Positions 324 through 11,530 of a stretch of DNA of 11,530 nt are shown piece after piece (position 1 is the stretch's first letter; each line of letters begins with the position of its first letter). A program made the position numbers and the translations under genes. The notes beneath the pieces are model-generated. The model worked only from the letters and a program-made list of their open reading frames with translations, searched no databases and was not told the DNA's origin. This DNA is from Terramyces sp. JEL0728 (taxonomy: Eukaryota; Chytridiomycota; Chytridiomycetes; Rhizophydiales; Terramycetaceae): contig JADIIU010000220.1 of NCBI GenBank assembly GCA_027603945.1, forward strand, positions 1-11,530, read 5' to 3'.

Positions 324-1865
324 ATGAAAATTAGCCAGCTGCTCCTACCAACTTCAGCATTAGCATCAAATCTTTTGAATTTCCAAAATGCGCAAGAAAA
401 GGTTTTAGAATTTGGAAGTGAATTCAGCAAGTTGACTCACCAATTCATCTCCAAACCTTCTCTGCACGGAGACCAAAACTGGAACGTATTCACTCATTCA
501 AACTACCCCGGGTATGCATTAAGGGTTAAAGTAAATGGAAAGCTGTGTGATCCGAATGTTCGCCAATATTCCGGATATTTGGACACTGCTGACGACAAGC
601 ATTTTTATTTTTGGTTCTTTGAAAGCAGAGACAAACCTGCTGAAGATCCAGTTATAATGTGGCTAAATGGCGGTCCTGGATGTAGCTCATTCACCGGATT
701 GTTGGTAGAATTGGGTCCTTGCACTGTCAATGCAGATAGGCTTTCTACAACCCTGAACCCTTACTCTTGGAACAACAATGCAAACATCTTCTTTTTGGAT
801 CAAGTAAGCTTTGCTAATTCTAGCCGGTTAATGTTGGCTTCAGTTACTCTGATTCCCATAGGATTGATACTACTGTTTCTGCTGCTGAAGATGTCCACAC
901 TTTCTTGCAGCTATTCTTTGATGCATTCCCAACATATGCCAAGTTAGATTTCCATGTAACTGGTGAATCTTATGCCGGCCACTACATTCCAGCGATTGCT
1001 AAATCTATCCAGGACCATAAACACGCAATTGAACAAGGCTCAGAAGAAGGTCTACTTATCAACCTCAAAACATTGGCTATTGGTAATGGTATAACAGATC
1101 CATTGGTTCAATACAAGTACTTTCCTGATATGGCTGCGGATACTAAATACGGTCCAGTTCTCTCTGAACAAATCGTCGCAAAGATGAGATTCGGATGGCC
1201 GGTTTGTGAACAGATGATTAAATTCTGCTATGAATATACAAACAAGGAAATTTGCAAGTAATTTTGGTTAACCATAGACCCGCAGCAACGTTCTGTTATG
1301 ATCTGATGAAGCAAGATTATGACGATGCTCATTTGAATCCCTATGATGTTCGTTTGCCACCAGATGATCATTCTACTGACGAGAGAAGTATTCGAATGCA
1401 CGAATGGCTAAACAACCCTGAAATTCAACAACAGCTCGGTGTTGAAAGAGCTCATGATGGTTGCAGCGATAGTGTTGGTAGTGACTTTGAAAAGAACGGG
1501 GATACCATGCATCCAATTGTCAAAGGTATTCCGTCTCTATTAGAAGATGGAATTCAGATCTTAATTTATGCTGGTGATGCCGACTGGACTTGTAACTGGA
1601 TTGGAAACAAAGCCTGGACGCTTGCTTTGCCATGGCACGGACAAGAAGGATTCAATAACGCTACCGATATCTTTTGGCAATCAGAGCTTACAAAACAAGC
1701 TGCAGGAGAGTATCGACAATTTGAAAACTTTGCATTTTTAAGAGTTTACGAATCTTCACACTTTGTCCCGACTGATCAAGTAATAATTATTAACAATAGC
1801 CTGAACACTCGCTAGAATTCATCAACAAGTGGATCAGAGGAAACCCTGTTGCCGTTGGGAAATAA
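324..1865 (+). CDS. PRC1: Vacuolar serine carboxypeptidase (carboxypeptidase Y, peptidase S10)
   Basis: Exons are 324-803, 824-1257, 1278-1779 and 1800-1865, giving 493 aa; the three introns are each exactly 20 nt. Without splicing the reading frame breaks three times, and splicing restores family sequence across each join (for example [14 protein letters not shown]). The enzyme removes C-terminal residues from peptides in the vacuole. The catalytic triad is visible: Ser209 in GESYAGH, Asp405 in YAGDADW and His466 in SSHFVP; the oxyanion/substrate segment [10 protein letters not shown] is at 113-122. Family members usually have GGHMVP around the histidine, so SSHFVP is a small departure. The N terminus looks like a signal peptide (about residues 1-15, [15 protein letters not shown]) followed by a propeptide shorter than in yeast. 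The start is the first ATG in frame, in the context CGCAAAAATG. The gene ends 16 bp from the convergent WASP gene. Confidence 0.95.
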
Positions 1866-1866
1866 A
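1861..1866 (+). terminator. AATAAA poly(A) signal overlapping the carboxypeptidase stop
   Basis: AATAAA overlaps the TAA stop at 1863-1865. As only 16 bp separate this gene from the stop of the convergent WASP gene, cleavage and polyadenylation must happen inside the neighbour's coding region. Assigned by motif and position only. Confidence 0.5.
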
Positions 1867-1871
1867 TTGTT

Positions 1872-1877
1872 TTTATT
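1872..1877 (-). terminator. AATAAA poly(A) signal of the WASP gene
   Basis: On the minus strand AATAAA lies 4 nt past the WASP stop codon, inside the 16-bp gap between the two convergent stops. The transcript end probably runs into the carboxypeptidase last exon. Confidence 0.5.
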
Positions 1878-1881
1878 CGTT

Positions 1882-3466
1882 TTACCATTCATCGTCGTCG
1901 TCTTCTTCATCTACTATTAGCATTTAAACACCTGACCCGCCAGTTACCGCAGTGATTCGTTTTTGTAGCGCATCTCTAAGTGCGTCTGCAATAGCATCTC
2001 CAGTTCCTTTGGGAGCTTCCTGTTGGATCGGGTTATCCGCAGCGGACTTTAATTGTGTTCCTTGCCGGATTTGAGACAACAAGTCCCCTGGTTGCGCTTT
2101 TGCCGGAGTTGCTTGTTTCGCAGGTTGTGCTGGGGCTCTTGCAGGAGTTACATGAATTGGCGGAGGAGGTGCATTGGAGAAATCTGGAGGAGGTCTAGAA
2201 TTAACTAATATTACGGAGGAGGCGGTGGAGTTGCACCTGAAGGTTGATTGCGAGATGGAATAGCTGGATGTGGAACTCTACCGGGAATAGCAGGCGGGGC
2301 AACAGCAGGTCTTTCTGGAATACTTTTGCGTTAGTTAGTAGTTACTGTGATTGTCGGTCTGGAAGACTGGGAGGACCAGCTCTACTTGGTGGGGGAGGAG
2401 CCTTCTCAGCAATTATGTTTGTATTGGACTGTCCTCGAGATGGCGGCGCTTAATTAGAAAGTAAATACGCGGTGGTGCAGATCTATTCACATTCAGTGTT
2501 GGATTAGTTGTTGTGCTTCCCCTAGATGGTGGTGCTAGCTATTAATAAAAAATACGTGGAGGGGGGGCTCTTCTACCTAACTATTAAATAGAGATTACTT
2601 GCCGGTTGTTGTGCAGCAGACTGGCTTGCATTTGGTTGCAGTGCTGGTGGTGTTGGTGCTTCAATGGATGACGATGCCAACAATCCTGCATTTTCTTTCA
2701 TGAATTTCTTGATCACTTTTTGCTGCTTCTTATCTTGCAATTGCTCATCAGTAATTCCAGCTTTTTGAAAAATAATCTTCCATTCTTTGGATTAGAAAAA
2801 AGTACCCATTGGGATGTTTTGGACACTGAAGCCATCTGCTTTGCTATAGCCTACGTGGCTAACGTGTTGAAAGTCTGATGGACCAGAAATCATTGCTTTA
2901 TCCAACTTTTTTTCTTTAGTTTTAGTATTTTTTCTGAATAATCCAAACCCTGTGCTTTCTTTCTTTGATTTTCTTCTATCAAGACCGCTATCTAATGAGG
3001 GACTTGATTGATTCGCATTGGTAGTTGACGCTGAAGAAACAGATCGGATGTGGTCTCGTTCCCTTTGCGAAAACGCATCGTGAAAAACCAACGCATCATC
3101 CTCATCCGCAAATGAAAATCCAATCATGCAATTCTACATTAAAATCAAGTACTTTTCCAACAAACGAGTGAAAAAACGGTTTTTCAGCTTGATATTTAAT
3201 ATCTCCAAAAATATTAAAATCCCATAGTTGACTTCCAGACTGTATTAATCAATAGTACTTTTAAATCAACAATTGAAAAATTGAATTCGCCGCTATTCTT
3301 ATTTTTGTATAACGCTAACCCTCCAGTGAAGGAATGCGAATATTCTTTCGCGTTGGTTGCTTGATACAGACGTGCTACTGTGCTGGCCAATACCTTGTTA
3401 GTTTCCAATTACTGCTCCATCACAAGATTTTTCAATGCATCTTTGTTCTTCAGGTAGCAATATCAT
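1882..3466 (-). CDS. LAS17: Wiskott-Aldrich syndrome protein homologue (WASP/N-WASP type, full domain set)
   Basis: Eleven exons (3466-3413, 3393-3259, 3239-3153, 3133-2806, 2784-2599, 2576-2556, 2534-2469, 2448-2346, 2322-2215, 2194-1932, 1910-1882) encode 459 aa; ten introns are 19-23 nt. It activates the Arp2/3 complex to nucleate branched actin at the cell cortex. Domains in order: WH1 at about 19-115 (TVARLY; FFHSF; GFSFADEDDA), a basic stretch at about 149-171, CRIB ISGPSDFQHVSHVG at 174-187 with the rest of the GBD after it (GITDEQLQDK), a proline-rich region with repeated APPP/PPSRG, WH2 near 400-415 (LLSQIRQGTQLK), a central helix near 429-446 and an acidic tail ending DDDDEW. Exon 6 is only 21 nt. 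The last intron may end at 1911 (21 nt, preferred) or 1914 (18 nt, adding one Val). The start at 3466 is the only in-frame ATG in exon 1 and shares CGCAAAAATG with the carboxypeptidase start. Confidence 0.93.
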
Positions 3467-3737
3467 TTTTGCGTGTAAAAATCAAACAATGAAATAAACA
3501 GAGCTAGTATTTGATCGAGCAGTTTTGAAGGCAGAATTTCATAGAAATATCATACTCAATTTTATGAACGTGTGGAGCTACTATTCTAACAATATAGTCG
3601 ATACTGGAAGTATACTTTGGAGCGCCTATCGAGGTGCTCTCGTAACCAGGACAACATAGGTTTACTTTGCATCATAATTCATTTGAAATTAGAATAATCT
3701 GCAATAATACGCATGTATTTTCTTTTTGAGATTTCGT
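3467..3737. other. Intergenic spacer, WASP / tRNA-Ser
   Basis: This 271-bp region lies between the divergent WASP and tRNA-Ser genes. It is AT-rich, has no long ORF on either strand and no segment fitting the local intron rule. No recognisable TATA box precedes the WASP start. Confidence 0.45.
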
Positions 3738-3819
3738 GACAACGTGGCCGAGCGGTTAAGGCGACAGACTTGAAATCTGTTCCACTTTGTGGTCGCAGGT
3801 TCAAGTCCTGCCGTTGTCG
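3738..3819 (+). tRNA. tRNA-Ser(UGA)
   Basis: This 82-nt gene folds as a class II tRNA. The acceptor GACAACG (3738-3744) pairs with CGTTGTC (3812-3818), with discriminator G at 3819. The anticodon stem ACAGA/TCTGT encloses loop CTTGAAA, anticodon TGA, which reads UCA and related serine codons. A long variable arm (CCAC...GTGG) is typical of tRNA-Ser. Box A (TGGCCGAGCGG) and box B (GGTTCAAGTCC, 3798-3808) are intact. It has no intron and no encoded CCA. Confidence 0.97.
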
Positions 3820-3823
3820 TTGC

Positions 3824-3829
3824 TTTTTT
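3824..3829 (+). terminator. RNA polymerase III T-run terminator
   Basis: Six consecutive T residues begin 5 nt after the tRNA-Ser discriminator base, the normal stop signal for RNA polymerase III. Confidence 0.75.
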
Positions 3830-3932
3830 CTTGTTTAACAATACTAGTGGCAGACATGCGTCGCAATTTGCAAACCCTAATCTGTTGCAACTCTGAAATT
3901 TAGTTTTGGAATAAATGCAAGATTGATTTCGA

Positions 3933-3938
3933 TTTATT
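3933..3938 (-). terminator. AATAAA poly(A) signal of the DHTKD1-type gene
   Basis: AATAAA on the minus strand lies 14 nt past the stop codon at 3953-3955. Only about 130 bp separate that stop from the tRNA-Ser gene. Confidence 0.45.
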
Positions 3939-3952
3939 AAATAATGAATCTT

Positions 3953-6871
3953 TTAAAAGTTAAAGATCCCGCTGATAACGTGAGCTTGTTCTTTTTTGTA
4001 TACTTTGCTGACTCCGGTAGCTGGTGCAGCTAAAGGCCCTCTTCCGTGATAGTTCAAATTCATGCTTAATAACTCTTGCAATCTTGGAGCACAGAATGTA
4101 TAGGCACCTTGATTTTGCGGCTCTTCTTGTACCCAATAGTAGTCTTGGACGTTTTTGAATTTGGCAATTTCGTTGGCCAAATCAGCAGTTGGGAAAGGGT
4201 TTAGTTCTTCAAGACGGATGAAGGCTACTTCAGCATCTTTTCCTTTGTTGCTTCTTTCCTTTACAAGGTCGTAATAAAGTTTACCGCTGACAAAACAGAC
4301 TCTTTTAACAGAATCATGGGATTCAGGGGTGGTGAAAATTGGATCAGAAAGGACTGGCTGCCATGTGGTTCCTGGTCCCATTTCAGTCAAATCAGAAGTA
4401 CATACAGGTGATCTGAGCAATGCCTTTGGACCAACAACAATTAATGGTTTCCTGTAATTTCGTACCATCTAGTGTTAATAATAAGTTACTTGACGTCTCA
4501 TAACATGAAAGTACTGAGCTGGAGTGGTAGGGTTCACAACGTGCATGTTTGGATTATCTTGTTTTGGCTCCCCAGCGACATCGAATCTGTGGTCACATAG
4601 TTGCAAGAATCTTTCTACTCTGCAAGAAGAATGTTCAGGGCCAGCGCCTAAAATTAAAAACAATTACCATCGTAGCCGTGTGGCAATAACATTACTAGAC
4701 CAGATTGTCTCATCCATTTAGCCTCTCCAGAAGACAAGTAAACATCAATAACAATTTGGGCACCATTGAAAAAGTCGCCAAACTGTGCTTCCCAGATGCA
4801 GAGACGGTTAGGAGTTTCCCAAGACACGCCATATTCAAATCCTAGTACAGCAAACTCAGACAAGTGTGAGTTGGCAATTTCTAATTTTGCCTGTGGCTTA
4901 TCAGAAATATGATTCAATGGAATGATGGTTCTTTCAGTTTCGGAATCTACCAACATGGCGTGTCTTTGAGAAAAGGTGCCACGACCGACATCCTGCCCAG
5001 AAATACGGACATGATACCCTTCAGTAAGGAGGGAACCAAAGGCAAGTGCTTCAGCAGTAGCCCAGTCGAGGTTCTTTCCAGATTCCAATTTCTTTACTCT
5101 GTTTTCAATGTGATATTTAGCAATACGTGGATGAACAGAGACGCCATGGGTTGCAACAGACGCAAGACCAACTTGTCTTAGCGCTTCGACTTCAACGCCA
5201 GTCTCTGCTTTAACAACAGCGCTGGTAGTTGGAATCATATTTTTCCATTTTCCTTTGAATGCTTCGACATCTGGCTTGTAGCCATCAGAAACTGCCAATT
5301 TGTCTTCAAGTGCAGTGTAGTATCCTTTACGGAAGTCTTCTATTTCCTGTTTGGATGAGAACACCTTTTCTTCCAGTAATTGCTCCTCATATTTTGCCGG
5401 AACACTTTTCTGACCTCTGATTTTCTTGTACATTAATGGTTGGGTAAATGCAGGTTCGTCCAACTCATTGTGTCCTAATCTTCTGTATGCAATCATGTCC
5501 AAAATGATATCTTTGCGGAATTTCTGGCGATATTGATAAGCAATGGAGGTAGCAAATGCAACTTCTTCCGGATAGTCAGCGTTCACATGCAATACAGGAC
5601 TGTTGATCATTTTGCCAACGTCAGAAGTGTAGACGGTGGATCTGGCATTCATGGATGGGGTGGTGTAACCAATTTGGTTATTTACAATAACATGGATAGA
5701 ACCACCAGCAGTAAAGTGAGGCAGGTTGGATAAACCAAGAGTTTCAGTTACAACACCTTGCCCAGTGAATGCAGCATCACCGTGCATTTGAATACATACA
5801 ACTCTGTCTCCAATGAAACACTCCTTTTCTGTACCTTCTTCGTATAAATACATCTGTCTTGCTCTTGCCTTTCCTAATGCAACTGGATTAGCAGCCTATA
5901 TCAAATACAAATTACTTCCAAGTGGGATGGATTGTGGAGCATGGAAACATGCAATGGCTTGTCTTTTCCATAGCTTTCCAAATCAGTTGAAATTGCCAAG
6001 TGCGAAATAACATCGCCAGATGCTGGCAAGCCTTCAGCCAATTCAGCGTTTCCTTTGATTTTATGGAACAAAGCTTCAGGTTTGAAGTGTAAAATATCAG
6101 TCAATAAATTCAATCTCCCACGATGAGGCATGCAAACGATTGCATCCCTAATACCGGCTAAAATTAGAGAAAAGTACCATCGCCTGCTTCCTTAAAGAGA
6201 GTGTGCAAAACAATCATCATGCTTTCAGACCCTTCCAGCCCATATCTCTTTAATTGAGGAAACTTTTTCGCCATAAAGTGGTCAAATACCTATGTTAATA
6301 CAGTCTACTTCAGATTTAGATAATAGGGAGAAAAAAGTCTTTTTATCTTCTGCAGTGTACTTTGGCTTTTCATAGGATTCTACTAGTCCGGCAAACCAGC
6401 GACGTTCAGCGGATGAAGGCAAGTGTTGAAATTCAAATCCGATCCTTCCAGTATAAGTAGAACGCAAGTGCTTCAAAATAGTTTCTACTTTGGCATTTTC
6501 CCTCGAAATGGTAGGATCGCTGGTCTTTCCAATATGTAATATACCAGCTAATGGATAAGATTTCCCAGATTCAGGGATGCCATAGCGTGTTGGGTCGAGT
6601 TCAGGAATAGGGTCCAGCTTGGCGAGGTTAAGCGGATCCAAATCAGCTAATCTATGCCCATTTGCCCTGAAAGAATGAACTAGACGCAAGAGATTAGAAT
6701 TTTCAATGCGATTATTAATTTCTTGTGCAGAGTCTACAGTTAGAATCGCTTACAATCTTCAATCTTTGCCTCCCTGTTGTATCTGAATCCATAAACATCA
6801 TCGTGGTTGTAATGATACTTTCTGGTTGGCGGCAATGACTTTACAGTTTTCCTGATTCCTGCTCTCAGCAT
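3953..6871 (-). CDS. DHTKD1: 2-oxoadipate dehydrogenase E1, DHTKD1 type (thiamine diphosphate enzyme)
   Basis: Seven exons (6871-6754, 6733-6309, 6289-6178, 6157-5916, 5895-4668, 4647-4490, 4468-3953) encode 932 aa; six introns are 19-21 nt. The E1 decarboxylates a 2-oxoacid with thiamine diphosphate and passes the acyl group to a lipoylated E2 in mitochondria. A basic, acid-poor N terminus ([19 protein letters not shown]) suits mitochondrial import. Visible are MPHRGRLN (228-235), the ThDP/metal motif HGDAAF...VNNQ (337-373), GHNELDEP (440-447) and [14 protein letters not shown] (598-611). I call it DHTKD1 and not 2-oxoglutarate dehydrogenase because the length is close to the roughly 920 aa of DHTKD1, and because [47 protein letters not shown] and RNYRKPLIV resemble DHTKD1, as remembered, more than OGDH. 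Substrate preference is inferred. The start is the ATG opening exon 1; the frame closes correctly across all joins. Confidence 0.92.
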
Positions 6872-7250
6872 TTTAAAAATTGAAATTTAAAAAAAGTCAG
6901 TTAGTTCAGTAGTCACAAGAGTGGCTTTCGCTGCAATACGGCCAGTTCGGTTTAACAGAGAGTAGACAATGATTCAAATTGCAAAATAATGCGCAGGTGT
7001 TCTCTGTTATTTAGGCTGCCTTAATTAAGCTATTTTTGGATGGTTTTAAGCAAATGGAGATGAAATATTTGTGTACCACCTTGGGCTCGGGGCTTGCTCG
7101 AATGGCGCTGGACTCTAGTAGGTTGGACATTAAGCTATGGATGCATGTCTGCAACTAGAGAGATTGAGATTGGCGAATTTAATTCTCCACGACACGATTC
7201 AATTCGCACGTACAATAAAAGAATGGGATATATTTGCTTAACCAATTTCG
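6872..7250. other. Intergenic spacer upstream of the DHTKD1-type gene
   Basis: This 379-bp stretch should carry the DHTKD1-type promoter and the 3' end of the 7TM gene transcript. A 33-codon ATG ORF beginning near 7054 (+) exists but resembles nothing I know. No tRNA fold, local-type intron or TATA box was found. The 7TM stop lacks a close AATAAA, unlike the other protein genes. Confidence 0.45.
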
Positions 7251-8069
7251 CTATTGATTTAATTTTGACTGTTCGATATCTACCAGCGCTCCCTTCTCCG
7301 TCTGCCTGTCGGATAGAGTAAAATCCTTAAAGAGAGGAATAACAAATATACTAGCAGTGACATGGAGCCCCGTTGCAGCCAGTGAAATATGCACAAGGAA
7401 ATAGAAATCCAACGTTTGAATAAACTCTTCTGTAGCTTTGCTCTGTATGTACATGAATAGGAGGAAATTAAGCCAATCAACCATGTTTAGCGTGAGGTTG
7501 AAGAGTAATAGCTTCCGCAATGCAAATACAACGGATGGTTGCAGATTGATCTTTCGTTCTCTCTTGAACTGATATACCAGCCAAATCAAGTACGCGCATT
7601 GTACGTTAGCATACAGAAATGAGAGCATTAGAAATACCAGTGGTCCGAATCCAATGCCAAGCAGCAAATAATCTGGCGGATTACTGTAAAATAATATCAC
7701 ATAACTTGGCCAGACAGCAGCCAAGAACAGAGTTATTGCGAGAATACGGCCATACTGTATCCTTTTGTCAGTAATCCTGCCATTCAAAACTGAAAACGAT
7801 CTTAGAATCTCTGTATTCAACAATACTTCTCCTAATATCGACCACTGAGCTGCCATCGTTTCAATTCGAAATAGCATTACATTTGGCGATCCGTAATAGA
7901 ACCGCAGCCCACATATTAGCTGGATTATGTTTATAATTAGCAACAGAACTGCTGGGATTCTGAATTTTATAATTTTAATGCGATTTGTTGCTATTAGACA
8001 TATACAGATAATACTTGATCCAAATATTACGGAGAGGAAGGCAATTGGTGTCCATTGCAACGATGACAT
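7251..8069 (-). CDS. Seven-helix membrane protein of unknown function, possibly receptor-like
   Basis: A single uninterrupted exon encodes 272 aa. Hydrophobic segments lie at about 7-27, 37-57, 72-90 (weak), 106-127, 134-166 (long), 186-208 and 222-247, giving a probable seven-helix topology. Charged loops follow helices 1 (NRIKIIKFR), 3 (GRITDKR) and 5 (QFKRERK), and a polar 25-residue C-terminal tail ends SKLNQ. Positive charges after odd helices suggest an N-out, C-in orientation as in G-protein-coupled receptors, but I recognise no DRY, NPxxY or other family motif. It lacks introns, unlike its larger neighbours. The start is the first ATG, 22 nt after a TATA-like element. It could equally be a transporter or a lineage-specific sensory protein. 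Confidence 0.8.
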   Translation of the reverse strand: MSSLQWTPIAFLSVIFGSSIICICLIATNRIKIIKFRIPAVLLLIINIIQLICGLRFYYGSPNVMLFRIETMAAQWSILGEVLLNTEILRSFSVLNGRITDKRIQYGRILAITLFLAAVWPSYVILFYSNPPDYLLLGIGFGPLVFLMLSFLYANVQCAYLIWLVYQFKRERKINLQPSVVFALRKLLLFNLTLNMVDWLNFLLFMYIQSKATEEFIQTLDFYFLVHISLAATGLHVTASIFVIPLFKDFTLSDRQTEKGALVDIEQSKLNQ

Positions 8070-8090
8070 GTTCCAGAAAATGAAAAAGCA

Positions 8091-8097
8091 TTTATAC
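8091..8097 (-). promoter_or_regulatory. TATA box of the 7TM gene
   Basis: The minus strand reads GTATAAATG 22-28 nt before the start codon at 8069. If it acts as a TATA box at usual spacing, transcription would begin almost at the ATG. Assigned by motif and position only. Confidence 0.45.
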
Positions 8098-8216
8098 CAG
8101 AGGTAACATTAAAATTTTTAATGCAGATTCGAAATACTTTGGAATGCCGTATCGCTGATTGCATGATAATTCAATCTCGCTGATAACAAACGCGAAAGCA
8201 GATTGCTATAACTCTA

Positions 8217-8222
8217 TTTATT
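8217..8222 (-). terminator. AATAAA poly(A) signal overlapping the ankyrin-gene stop
   Basis: On the minus strand AATAAA contains the TAA stop codon (8220-8218) of the ankyrin gene. The same overlap is seen in three other genes here. Confidence 0.5.
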
Positions 8223-9166
8223 GGTTGATATATTCATCAACTTGCCAGTTCCCAGAGGCTTTAGCACAATCACCAAGTGTCCATTCACCAGACTTTTTAA
8301 ATACCCCTTGCTCAGAACTTCCTGAAGCAACACCTTCTCCAACCGCGCCATAAGTTTTCAAGAGTTTAATAGACTCTAAATCACCCATATACGCTGCGAA
8401 ATGGAGTGGGGAACCAGAGGCAAAGAATCTATTCGCGCCGATGCTGTTGTACAGTTGAATATATCCACCTTCTTCAAATTCGACGCTCATATTTACATCC
8501 AACATTCCAAGTTCTTTGGCGAGCGGATTCTTCAAGATGGTTTCCAACAAAGAGAGCTTGTTTTCCAAGGCAGACACCAAAATAGCGTGTACAATGAACC
8601 TTGGAGGAGTAGATCTAAAGTAATATTCAGTGGTTGAAGGGATATTAGTTGGTTTTGCATTTACTTCAAATGAGGGAAATTTGGAGGTTTCTGGTGAAAT
8701 TAGAACTCTGTGAATTTGCTTGGTATTGAATAAAGGAGCTTGCTCGGATTCCCAAACTTTGTCGATAATCTGCTCCAATTCAGCAGAAAATACAATGGTT
8801 TCAAGAGAATATTTTTCAGTTAGAACCGTGTCTCGGAGAGCTAGATCTGAAGATACATCCTTTTCAACCACAACTTCACTTGAAACTATTTCGTTTACAA
8901 CATCAACTCCTTTTGGCTCTGCATCCAGCGCTGGCGGTACATCTGCTTTTTCTTCTTGGATGTCCACTTTAACTTTGATCTCCAGTTCAGCAACTTTTAC
9001 TTTAGCCTCGATAATTTCAACCGGTGCTTCTTTGGCTATGAATTAAAACCCATTTACCAATACCATCAGGTACAGTCATACCAACTGGAGTTGGCTCAGT
9101 TTGAGCGACAGCCTTACTTGGTTTATCTTCTACTTTTTCAGTGCTAAAGCAAGAGCAACAACCCAT
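8218..9166 (-). CDS. Ankyrin-repeat protein with predicted myristoylated and palmitoylated N terminus
   Basis: Exons 9166-9058 and 9035-8218 encode 308 aa around one 22-nt intron; splicing joins PDGI|AKEAPVE and bypasses a stop. The N terminus MGCCSCFS has Gly2, followed by Cys3, Cys4 and Cys6. Gly2 with a small residue at position 6 fits N-myristoylation, and the cysteines fit palmitoylation, so the protein is probably anchored to the cytosolic face of a membrane (vacuole or plasma membrane; inference). Residues 12-110 are acidic and low-complexity, rich in V, E and K. The clearest ankyrin unit is SPLHFAAYMGDLESIKLL near 245-262. Degenerate repeats probably flank it: about 182-215 (FIVHAILVSALENKLSLLET) and the C terminus (WTLGDCAKASGNWQVDEYI). 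Its partner is unknown. The gene follows a TATAAAAGG box 27-33 nt before the ATG. Confidence 0.85.
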
Positions 9167-9192
9167 CTTGAAATCACGGCTACGTATTTTCC

Positions 9193-9199
9193 TTTTATA
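9193..9199 (-). promoter_or_regulatory. TATA box of the ankyrin gene
   Basis: The minus strand carries TATAAAAGG, a canonical TATA sequence, 27-33 nt before the start codon at 9166. This implies a leader of only a few bases. Confidence 0.6.
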
Positions 9200-9577
9200 C
9201 CATTGTTGTCTCTTGATAAGTGTTCGATAAGGATATCAGGGTGATTCGGGATCTTTCAATCACAGTGAAAAAATCAAATGAGGACGGATTTTGAAATGGC
9301 AAACGGCATGGATATCAAAGTAGGATGAATCTATTTGCAATTGGGAGCATGCTTGAAGCCTTGTTGCAGATCTGGATTAGCTGTCAGTTCTTATTCCTCG
9401 TGTGACTTTGGCATACAAATGACTGTCTGGTGGAGCGATGAAGAGTCCATCTCTCAATGAATTGCATTTTAACTTGAATCACGGTTCCGAATATTTGTAT
9501 TTCTAACCCATCTTATCTACAACCTCAGGGTGATATTTCCATGTTTGATTGACACTAATTAGAATGACATTTATTAA

Positions 9578-9706
9578 ATGACAGATGCGCCAAAAGTAGA
9601 TCTCACTTTCAATGGTAGAATCATGTCCGCTCAAGATTGTTTTGAGCGATGCGATAAAGCACCTTATGGGGTTGGACAGATCCAAACCGCAGAACTAGTA
9701 ACTTGA
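9578..9706 (+). CDS. Possible 42-residue small protein, doubtful
   Basis: An ATG in good A-rich context opens a 42-codon frame containing SAQDCFERCDKAPYG, with two cysteines spaced CFERC; I recognise no family. The composition looks protein-like, but the reverse strand is also open here. A 25-nt GTAACT...TTAG segment from 9698 would lengthen the frame to 80 residues, ending at 9845, 4 nt before the uL4m start. It breaks the intron spacing rule, so I do not use it. It may be chance within a promoter region. Confidence 0.22.
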   Translation: MTDAPKVDLTFNGRIMSAQDCFERCDKAPYGVGQIQTAELVT

Positions 9707-9849
9707 CATTCCTGATATTTAGAACTCAACCGCAAATATCAACAACCGCAATGGTGCCAATGTTCAATTCTGCCACTCCAGACTACCATTCAATAAATTT
9801 CTCTTGAACACATTTTTTGACTTTCTACAAAAAAATTTTCTTTAATCAA

Positions 9850-10810
9850 ATGAGACAGGTATTCAAAAGGCTGCTGACATCCATATCATCAGAAATTACG
9901 CCAGAGATTCAACCCATCCAAGTCGTAGAGGAGAAGTTGCCTTCCAGGATCAGAAAGAATTATTTATCCGAAATTCAAATTGTAGGACAATCAGCGATTC
10001 TACACAAATCCACAGAAATTGTAAACCAACCGAAAATGGATTTCTCTCAATTAGACAAATACGATAATTTAAAGAATGCATGGTTTGAATATCCGTTTAA
10101 ACAAGCCTTTTTAAAGACTTTTACGACCAACAACCGCATTGGCCTAGTTGAATTACAAAAGAATGTTTTCGGGTTGGATGTCAGAGTTGATTTGATGGCC
10201 AGATGCTTGAAATATGAAAAATCGTGGAAAGAACAAGGAACTGAAAGTACAAAAGCTAGAGGTCAAGTTAGAGGAACAGGCAAGAAAGCTGCACCACAAA
10301 AAGGACGAGGTGCTGCTAGAATCGGGTCTTTGCGTGCTCCACAGTTTAGAGGAGGTATAATAGCACTAATTTAGGCTATAATGTCCATGGTCCACGGCCT
10401 CACAACAAAACTACTGACATTCAAAAGAAGGTGTACAGTGCAGGCATTAGACATGCATTATCCGCAAAATTCCAACAGTCGCAGTTACTAGTGGTTGACC
10501 ATTTATCGCTATCTACTGGCACCAAACAAGAATTAAAAGACGTGTTGGAAGCCCACGGGCTATCTGGCCAAAAAGTATACTTTATCTATGGATCCTTGGA
10601 CTCGGATATAGTAATTCTTTCTAATGCTAGCCATTGACTAATGCTGTAGACATGTTTGCAAAGAAGCCAAAGACAGACTTGTTACCACATGGCGAAAGGC
10701 CACTGTTGATTACCCACGCTAATCAAGTATCTGTATCTACTCTGTTGGAGTACGATTATATTGTCATGGATAAAGAAGCTTCTGAGGTTTTGGAAGAAAT
10801 GTATGCTTGA
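9850..10810 (+). CDS. YML6: Mitochondrial large-subunit ribosomal protein uL4m
   Basis: Exons 9850-10354, 10375-10610 and 10631-10810 encode 306 aa; both introns are 20 nt. Splicing restores FRGGG|YNVHGPRPH and DSDI|PLTNAVDMF. The protein belongs to the uL4 family, which lines the exit tunnel of the mitochondrial large ribosomal subunit and contacts 23S-type rRNA. The N terminus MRQVFKRLLTSISS is basic and free of acids, as expected for a mitochondrial presequence. The uL4 core includes FKQAFLKTF, the basic loop KARGQVRGTGKKAAPQKGRG (about 136-155), RAPQFRGG and YSAGIRHALSAKF, with the C-terminal domain ending LLEYDYIVMDKEA. I use the ATG at 9850; a longer in-frame extension upstream has only a TTG. 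The stop is TGA, overlapped by AATAAA. Confidence 0.94.
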
Positions 10811-11485: not shown

Positions 11486-11530
11486 TCTTTGTTAGTATAG
11501 TGGTTAGTATCTCCGCCTGTCACGCGGAAG
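11486..11530 (+). tRNA. tRNA-Asp(GUC), 5' part, cut by the window edge
   Basis: The acceptor 5' strand TCTTTGT is followed by TA, the D arm containing AGTGGTTAGTAT (box A), and the anticodon stem TCCGC/GCGGA enclosing loop CTGTCAC with anticodon GTC at 11519-11521. The D arm and anticodon loop agree closely with eukaryotic tRNA-Asp. The variable loop, T arm and 3' acceptor are beyond the window. The gene starts 60 bp after the Hsp20 stop. Confidence 0.92.

Follow-up and report, generated by a model that had tools for sequence, protein, structure and literature searches.

The window analysed here, an 11,530-nucleotide (nt) stretch of DNA from Terramyces sp. JEL0728 (Terramycetaceae, Rhizophydiales, Chytridiomycota), is contig C220 of a 15,016,339-base draft assembly in 231 contigs. 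It holds five genes interrupted by ultra-short introns, namely those for a serine carboxypeptidase (3 introns), WASP/Las17 (10), the 2-oxoadipate dehydrogenase E1 DHKTD1 (6), an ankyrin-like protein (1) and mitochondrial ribosomal protein L4 (2). We enumerated candidate short introns on both strands and then spliced the genes in silico. All 22 introns of 19-23 nt that an initial annotation had placed in five genes were recovered with an identical length tally, that is 19 nt (4 introns), 20 nt (11), 21 nt (4), 22 nt (2) and 23 nt (1). The ends were GT and AG in every case, with GTA as the donor in 21 introns and GTG in one. Judging from the DNA, we are highly confident that these segments are U2-type spliceosomal introns that have shrunk to a physical floor, and that they occur throughout this chytrid genome as far as it was read.

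Alignments of the spliced proteins support 17 of the 22 introns. The proteins gave Pfam matches to Peptidase_S10, to E1_dh, Transket_pyr and OxoGdeHyase_C, to Ribosomal_L4 and to PBD, and half of the introns (11/22) lie inside domain or PDB alignments: three within Peptidase_S10, two within Ribosomal_L4 and six within the structure alignment of DHKTD1. Specifically, residues 25-927 of the 932-residue DHKTD1 align to human-type DHKTD1 in PDB, and the whole protein aligns position by position with a 932-residue protein of Boothiomyces sp. JEL0866, with 880 of 932 residues identical. By eye, the deposited DHKTD1 of Globomyces pollinis-pini shows a sudden divergence close to where the window gene has its intron at 6158-6177, and a very short intron may have been misread in that gene model too.

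The spliced WASP protein has a WH1 region (recognised from relatives), a CRIB domain, a proline-rich region, a WH2 match just under the Pfam cut-off and an acidic tail. When aligned by eye, six of its ten junctions agree with deposited relatives including Boothiomyces sp. JEL0838, one of them within the CRIB match. Excising 1911-1931 on the minus strand yields the acidic tail DEEDDDDEW, for which Boothiomyces sp. JEL0838 has DEEDDDDDW. The other four junctions lie in proline-rich sequence and are backed by frame, motif and composition, while the ankyrin-like product had no Pfam match and its one intron rests on frame and motif. The earlier statement that conserved proteins are restored across every join thus holds for four of the five genes and 17 introns, and does not extend to the ankyrin-like gene or to the four proline-rich WASP junctions.

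The best match of the window WASP protein was HDV01_003340, a deposited protein of 357 amino acids from the same organism, in which 355 of 357 residues agree. Compared with the window protein it leaves out three stretches and differs in its tail; it is without one WH1 exon, part of the proline-rich region and the acidic tail. Judging from its letters, this model implies the use of three introns of 19-21 nt. Annotation can therefore misread genomes with ultra-short introns, as the omission of exons from the deposited WASP model illustrates. A second, diverged WASP gene is also listed for Terramyces sp. JEL0728, with 44% identity to the window WASP.

Table 1. Intron-containing genes of the window and their introns; the branch A column gives the intron base that is the branch adenosine.
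Feature	Position	Strand	Length (nt)	Branch A	Remarks
Serine carboxypeptidase gene	324..1865	+			3 introns; Peptidase_S10 1.3e-113 on spliced protein
Carboxypeptidase intron	804..823	+	20	14	
Carboxypeptidase intron	1258..1277	+	20	14	
Carboxypeptidase intron	1780..1799	+	20	14	
WASP/Las17 gene	1882..3466	-			10 introns; CRIB (PBD match), relatives compared
WASP intron	1911..1931	-	21	15	GTG donor; acidic tail matches relative
WASP intron	2195..2214	-	20	14	Aligns with relatives
WASP intron	2323..2345	-	23	15	Proline-rich; no alignment support
WASP intron	2449..2468	-	20	15	Proline-rich; no alignment support
WASP intron	2535..2555	-	21	14	AG 3 nt past branch A skipped (frame); no alignment support
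WASP intron	2577..2598	-	22	15	AG 3 nt past branch A skipped (frame); no alignment support
WASP intron	2785..2805	-	21	14	Within CRIB domain
WASP intron	3134..3152	-	19	14	Aligns with relatives
WASP intron	3240..3258	-	19	14	Aligns with relatives
WASP intron	3394..3412	-	19	15	Aligns with relatives
DHKTD1 (2-oxoadipate dehydrogenase E1) gene	3953..6871	-			6 introns; Pfam and PDB alignment
DHKTD1 intron	4469..4489	-	21	15	
DHKTD1 intron	4648..4667	-	20	14	
DHKTD1 intron	5896..5915	-	20	15	Branch motif TTGAT
DHKTD1 intron	6158..6177	-	20	14	
DHKTD1 intron	6290..6308	-	19	14	
DHKTD1 intron	6734..6753	-	20	14	
Ankyrin-like gene (named by eye)	8218..9166	-			1 intron; no Pfam match
Ankyrin-like intron	9036..9057	-	22	15	Frame and motif only
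Mitochondrial ribosomal protein L4 gene	9850..10810	+			2 introns; Ribosomal_L4 4.3e-45 on spliced protein
Mitochondrial L4 intron	10355..10374	+	20	15	
Mitochondrial L4 intron	10611..10630	+	20	14	

The introns share one build: they open with GTA (GTG in one case), continue with 7-9 T-rich bases and then carry a branch motif near YTAAY. The fourth base of this motif is the branch A, which is base 14, 15 or 16 of the intron; it is followed by 4-8 bases that end in AG. This near-fixed spacing and the sharp stop at 19 nt had not been seen in the initial annotation. To describe the remaining positions we used 195 introns selected by GTA and YTAAY, in which those positions are 100% by construction. 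Downstream of GTA, +4 was A in 50%, +5 was T in 49% and G in 19%, and +6 was T in 53%. A T-rich stretch precedes the branch in this set, and no clear pyrimidine tract was found between branch and AG.

The class beyond the window was studied on both strands of 200 kb made up of the first 100 kb each of contigs C1 and C2. GTA[ACT] followed by YTAAY and AG occurred 61 times at 19 nt, 61 at 20 nt, 35 at 21 nt, 18 at 22 nt and 13 at 23 nt, while every other length from 12 to 150 nt gave between 1 and 16 (the 16 being at 17 nt) and no peak appeared with a decoy donor. The distance of the branch A from the 5' splice site was equally narrow, with 2 cases at position 13, 97 at 14, 76 at 15, 22 at 16 and 6 at 17, against a background of 7.4 taken from positions 200-2000. 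Positions 17-150 held no excess (-48 +/- 33), and substituting GTG, GCA, ATA or GAT for GTA gave no comparable peak. In these 200 kb, intron lengths therefore form a single narrow peak below ~25 nt without any longer class, and because of these statistics a chance origin of the window introns is excluded. The excess of introns of the YTAAY type amounts to 173, which by extrapolation would give ~13,000 introns in total if the whole genome is alike.

Taking the first AG downstream of the branch A as the intron end gives lengths of 17 nt (6 cases), 18 (3), 19 (69), 20 (67), 21 (36), 22 (14), 23 (7), 24 (3), 26 (4) and 27 (1), so that the floor is sharp at 19 nt save for a handful of candidates of 17-18 nt. 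All six implied 17-nt cases have an AG 3 nt past the branch A. Such a close AG occurs in 11 cases, and in 7 of these a second AG at 6 or 7 nt could be used instead. We infer that an AG less than 4 nt past the branch A is skipped, as the frame requires in two of the window introns, and that the first AG from 4 nt onwards serves as the 3' splice site. The sequence shows two floors, one of 14 nt from the 5' splice site to the branch and one near 19 nt for the whole intron. Natural variation was seen between pieces of contigs C199 and C111, which are 98.9% identical over 3.1 kb and are probably haplotypes or recent duplicates. Of the six introns called in them by motif, two carry a one-base indel (21 versus 20 nt). 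In both introns it falls in the stretch from the 5' splice site to the branch, so that the branch A is A15 in one copy and A14 in the other; both positions are within the allowed spacing.

Gene structures were also predicted de novo with two models. One, a weak model with a flat length prior that admitted only GT..AG introns, used the 200 kb together with the window for both training and prediction; of the 116 introns that it called, 70 were 19-22 nt long. Where a call was backed by coding sequence on both flanks, the number at these lengths was 16 of 22, whereas each of six decoy dinucleotide pairs gave 0-2, of 12-24 supported calls. At 36-150 nt the supported calls numbered 5, compared with 8-17 for the six decoys. 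A second model, run on the 200 kb, was given the learned motif and allowed introns of up to 150 nt at a penalty. It predicted 112 genes, 84 of them with introns, and 294 introns in all, with lengths of 19 (76), 20 (121), 21 (67), 22 (24), 23 (5) and 11 nt (1), i.e. 293 of 294 at 19-23 nt. Scaled up, this number corresponds to ~22,000 introns genome-wide, again an extrapolation. From 20 of the 33 genes that had at least 3 introns and a suitable length and score we hand-picked 16 proteins; all 16 of these chosen proteins had a Pfam match over the cut-off, and 52 of their 87 introns (53 with weak matches) lie at least 5 residues inside an over-cut-off match. An apparent signal of nonsense-mediated decay, in-frame stops in 51 of 67 introns with a length divisible by three versus 125 of 226 others (Fisher p 0.003), was rejected as confounded, because the model detects introns of the former kind least easily when they lack a stop. 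The 'genome-wide style' of the initial annotation was borne out in the sampled parts of C1 and C2, where the length class of the window recurs unaccompanied by a longer one, and the length histogram that it had proposed has, for these 200 kb, a single peak at 19-23 nt. Likewise, the gene set that it called opisthokont-like is indeed so, and the protein relatives sharpen this to a chytrid fungus; its conclusion that the spliceosome must put up with extreme compression is a fair one.

With regard to the splicing machinery, the assembly contains one copy of the U2 small nuclear RNA (snRNA; 140 bits) with the usual branch-pairing sequence GTGTAGTATCTGTTC, and the YTAAY branch motif at its fixed spacing is able to pair with it. 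U2AF65 was found at C2:44938-46279 (251.7 bits plus a second piece). It scored under the model's whole-protein cut-off, probably because introns cut the gene, and the spliced protein gave RRM matches. A zf-U1 match of 52 bits reads, by eye, like U1C on the minus strand. With a canonical U2, U2AF65 and a U1C-like protein all present in the assembly, the introns are very probably spliceosomal. For U1 snRNA there was no match in the assembly at E 10, in a noisy setting where 9 of 14 prokaryote controls matched under the cut-off, and U6 snRNA was not found by Rfam or by a pattern search of the assembly. Under-cut-off Rfam U6 matches on C199 and C111 were rejected, as they sit by eye in an apparent membrane-protein gene, and the pattern ACAGAGANGATNAGCA gave 7 matches, none with U6 flanks. 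U1-70K was not found with its N-terminal domain or a typed human piece, the best matches being generic RRMs, and a candidate exon at C10:78185 reads by eye as another RRM protein. A RED_N search for RED gave no candidates and had no positive control, as was the case for most searches for the undetected machinery. U6 must exist; therefore such misses mean little, and we claim no absence. Loss of the whole U1 small nuclear ribonucleoprotein (snRNP) is unsupported, a U1C-like zinc finger being encoded, albeit found by a search that matched 1 of 14 controls.

At the edges of the window we noted, by eye, a partial tRNA-Ser gene on the minus strand (1-53) and an apparent partial tRNA-Asp gene (~11487-11530). 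That the contig seems to end in a tRNA gene on either side suggests that the assembly breaks at repeated tRNA genes. A complete tRNA-Ser(TGA) gene lies at 3737-3820, and an intronless gene on the minus strand (7251-8070) encodes a protein that looks multi-pass membrane-bound and has no Pfam match.

Several points weigh against ultra-short spliceosomal introns throughout this genome. Splicing itself is something we infer from the DNA, and five of the window introns have no alignment support. The 200-kb sample was not random, being the starts of two contigs, and the lengths returned by the motif model are partly built in, the motif having been supplied. Our first coding model, overfitted on 39 training open reading frames, called 15 introns, did no better than decoys and was replaced. 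The zf-U1 search also matched E. coli among the 14 control genomes. Finally, failure to detect U1 and U6 snRNA is odd for a working spliceosome, and most likely reflects limits of the method or of the assembly.

Three other explanations were considered. The segments could be sequencing or assembly insertions that break reading frames, as might be feared in a draft of 231 contigs; however, a wide variety of sequences share GT..AG ends and a branch motif at fixed spacing, and three of the segments are already missing from the deposited WASP protein, judging from its letters, so that we give this explanation practically no credence. It is also conceivable that the short introns are real but form a local class or sub-class in a genome whose remaining introns are of ordinary fungal length, at least 40 nt. 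Of the 15 Mb, our reading covered 200 kb, the window and some small pieces, and longer introns with a different, weaker motif would escape the motif scan. Against this stand the lack of branch excess at positions 17-150, the supported flat-prior calls at 36-150 nt, which fell below all six decoys, and the finding that none of the 294 motif-model introns exceeded 23 nt even though lengths to 150 nt were allowed at a penalty; we regard a merely local class as improbable.

Removal by a route other than the spliceosome, such as ligation of the tRNA or HAC1 type or ribosome bypass, would fit the undetected U1 and U6 snRNA as well as a spacing of 14-16 nt, which is far under the minimum estimated for the human machine (PMC6692369). 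Nevertheless, the spliceosomal consensus is present at both ends and at the branch, and a canonical U2 with its branch-pairing sequence, U2AF65 and a U1C-like protein are encoded, which makes this route extremely improbable.

If the segments are indeed spliceosomal introns at their physical floor, their geometry is hard to place on the human machine. For the human B complex, the same report estimates that a gap of ~52 nt from the 5' splice site to the branch site is required, and has RED and SMU1 becoming essential near this limit (PMC6692369); the 14-16 nt of Terramyces do not conform to it. The 5' splice site would be read by U1 and U6 and the branch site by U2 as usual, with the two duplexes abutting. 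At such a spacing the extended helices of U6 with the 5' splice site and of U2 with the branch could therefore not both exist on the intron, and the duplexes would either be short and adjacent or form one after the other. Recognition would then probably be a hand-over within one compact unit rather than the work of two separately seated snRNPs. Going further, we suggest only tentatively, and with more doubt than conviction, that a rebuilt early spliceosome handles the intron as a single 19-nt unit into which a ruler of 14-16 nt is built. In such a machine the human arrangement, with U1 and U2 seated together, would be impossible, the extended helices of U6 and of U2 would not be made, the +5 G signal normally read by U1 and U6 would be largely given up, and U1-70K and the RED module would be lost or changed beyond recognition.

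A search of the open-access literature found no report of such introns in a fungus among the titles and abstracts listed, and they have likely gone unreported so far. The chytrid in hand is free-living and in culture. The question of the smallest intron that a spliceosome can handle thus moves into a kingdom with strong biochemistry and genetics. It does so with exact numbers, 14-16 nt to the branch and ~19 nt in total, that the published human B-complex estimate would bar, and therefore how the 5' splice site and the branch site are held together becomes directly testable.

The initial annotation knew comparable sizes mainly from nucleomorphs and ciliates. Both hold, and the mikrocytids, with introns of 16-17 nt (PMC10245619), belong on the list too. 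The nucleomorph of the chlorarachniophyte Bigelowiella natans resembles Terramyces in its narrow range of 18-21 nt over 865 introns, and differs in being a 373-kb remnant nucleus described as having no obvious 5' motif beyond GU (PMC6461891), whereas in the 15-Mb genome of the fungus Terramyces both GTA and the branch motif, with its fixed spacing, stand out clearly. Trichomonas introns of type B are ~25 nt, down to 23 nt, with the branch site fixed near the 3' end; only 24 of them exist beside a long class (PMC12316389), in contrast to the one class in the Terramyces DNA that was read. Introns of 21-29 nt are reported from Nyctotherus (PMC2633312). Mikrocytos mackini shares an extremely narrow size range (16-17 nt) and a conserved intron sequence, but in this parasite the spliceosome is much reduced and the introns number 224 (PMC10245619), while Terramyces has U2AF65 and, by extrapolation, ~13,000 or more introns. 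Stentor, a heterotrich ciliate, has SMU1 and IK/RED matches (PMC9505925), while RED was undetected in Terramyces in the search that had no positive control, and heterotrich introns are still shorter, at 15-16 nt (PMC10245619). In other respects this ciliate is alike: it is free-living and has tiny introns genome-wide, with a conserved A near the intron 3' end and conserved U1 and U2 (PMC10245619, PMC9505925, PMC10946202).

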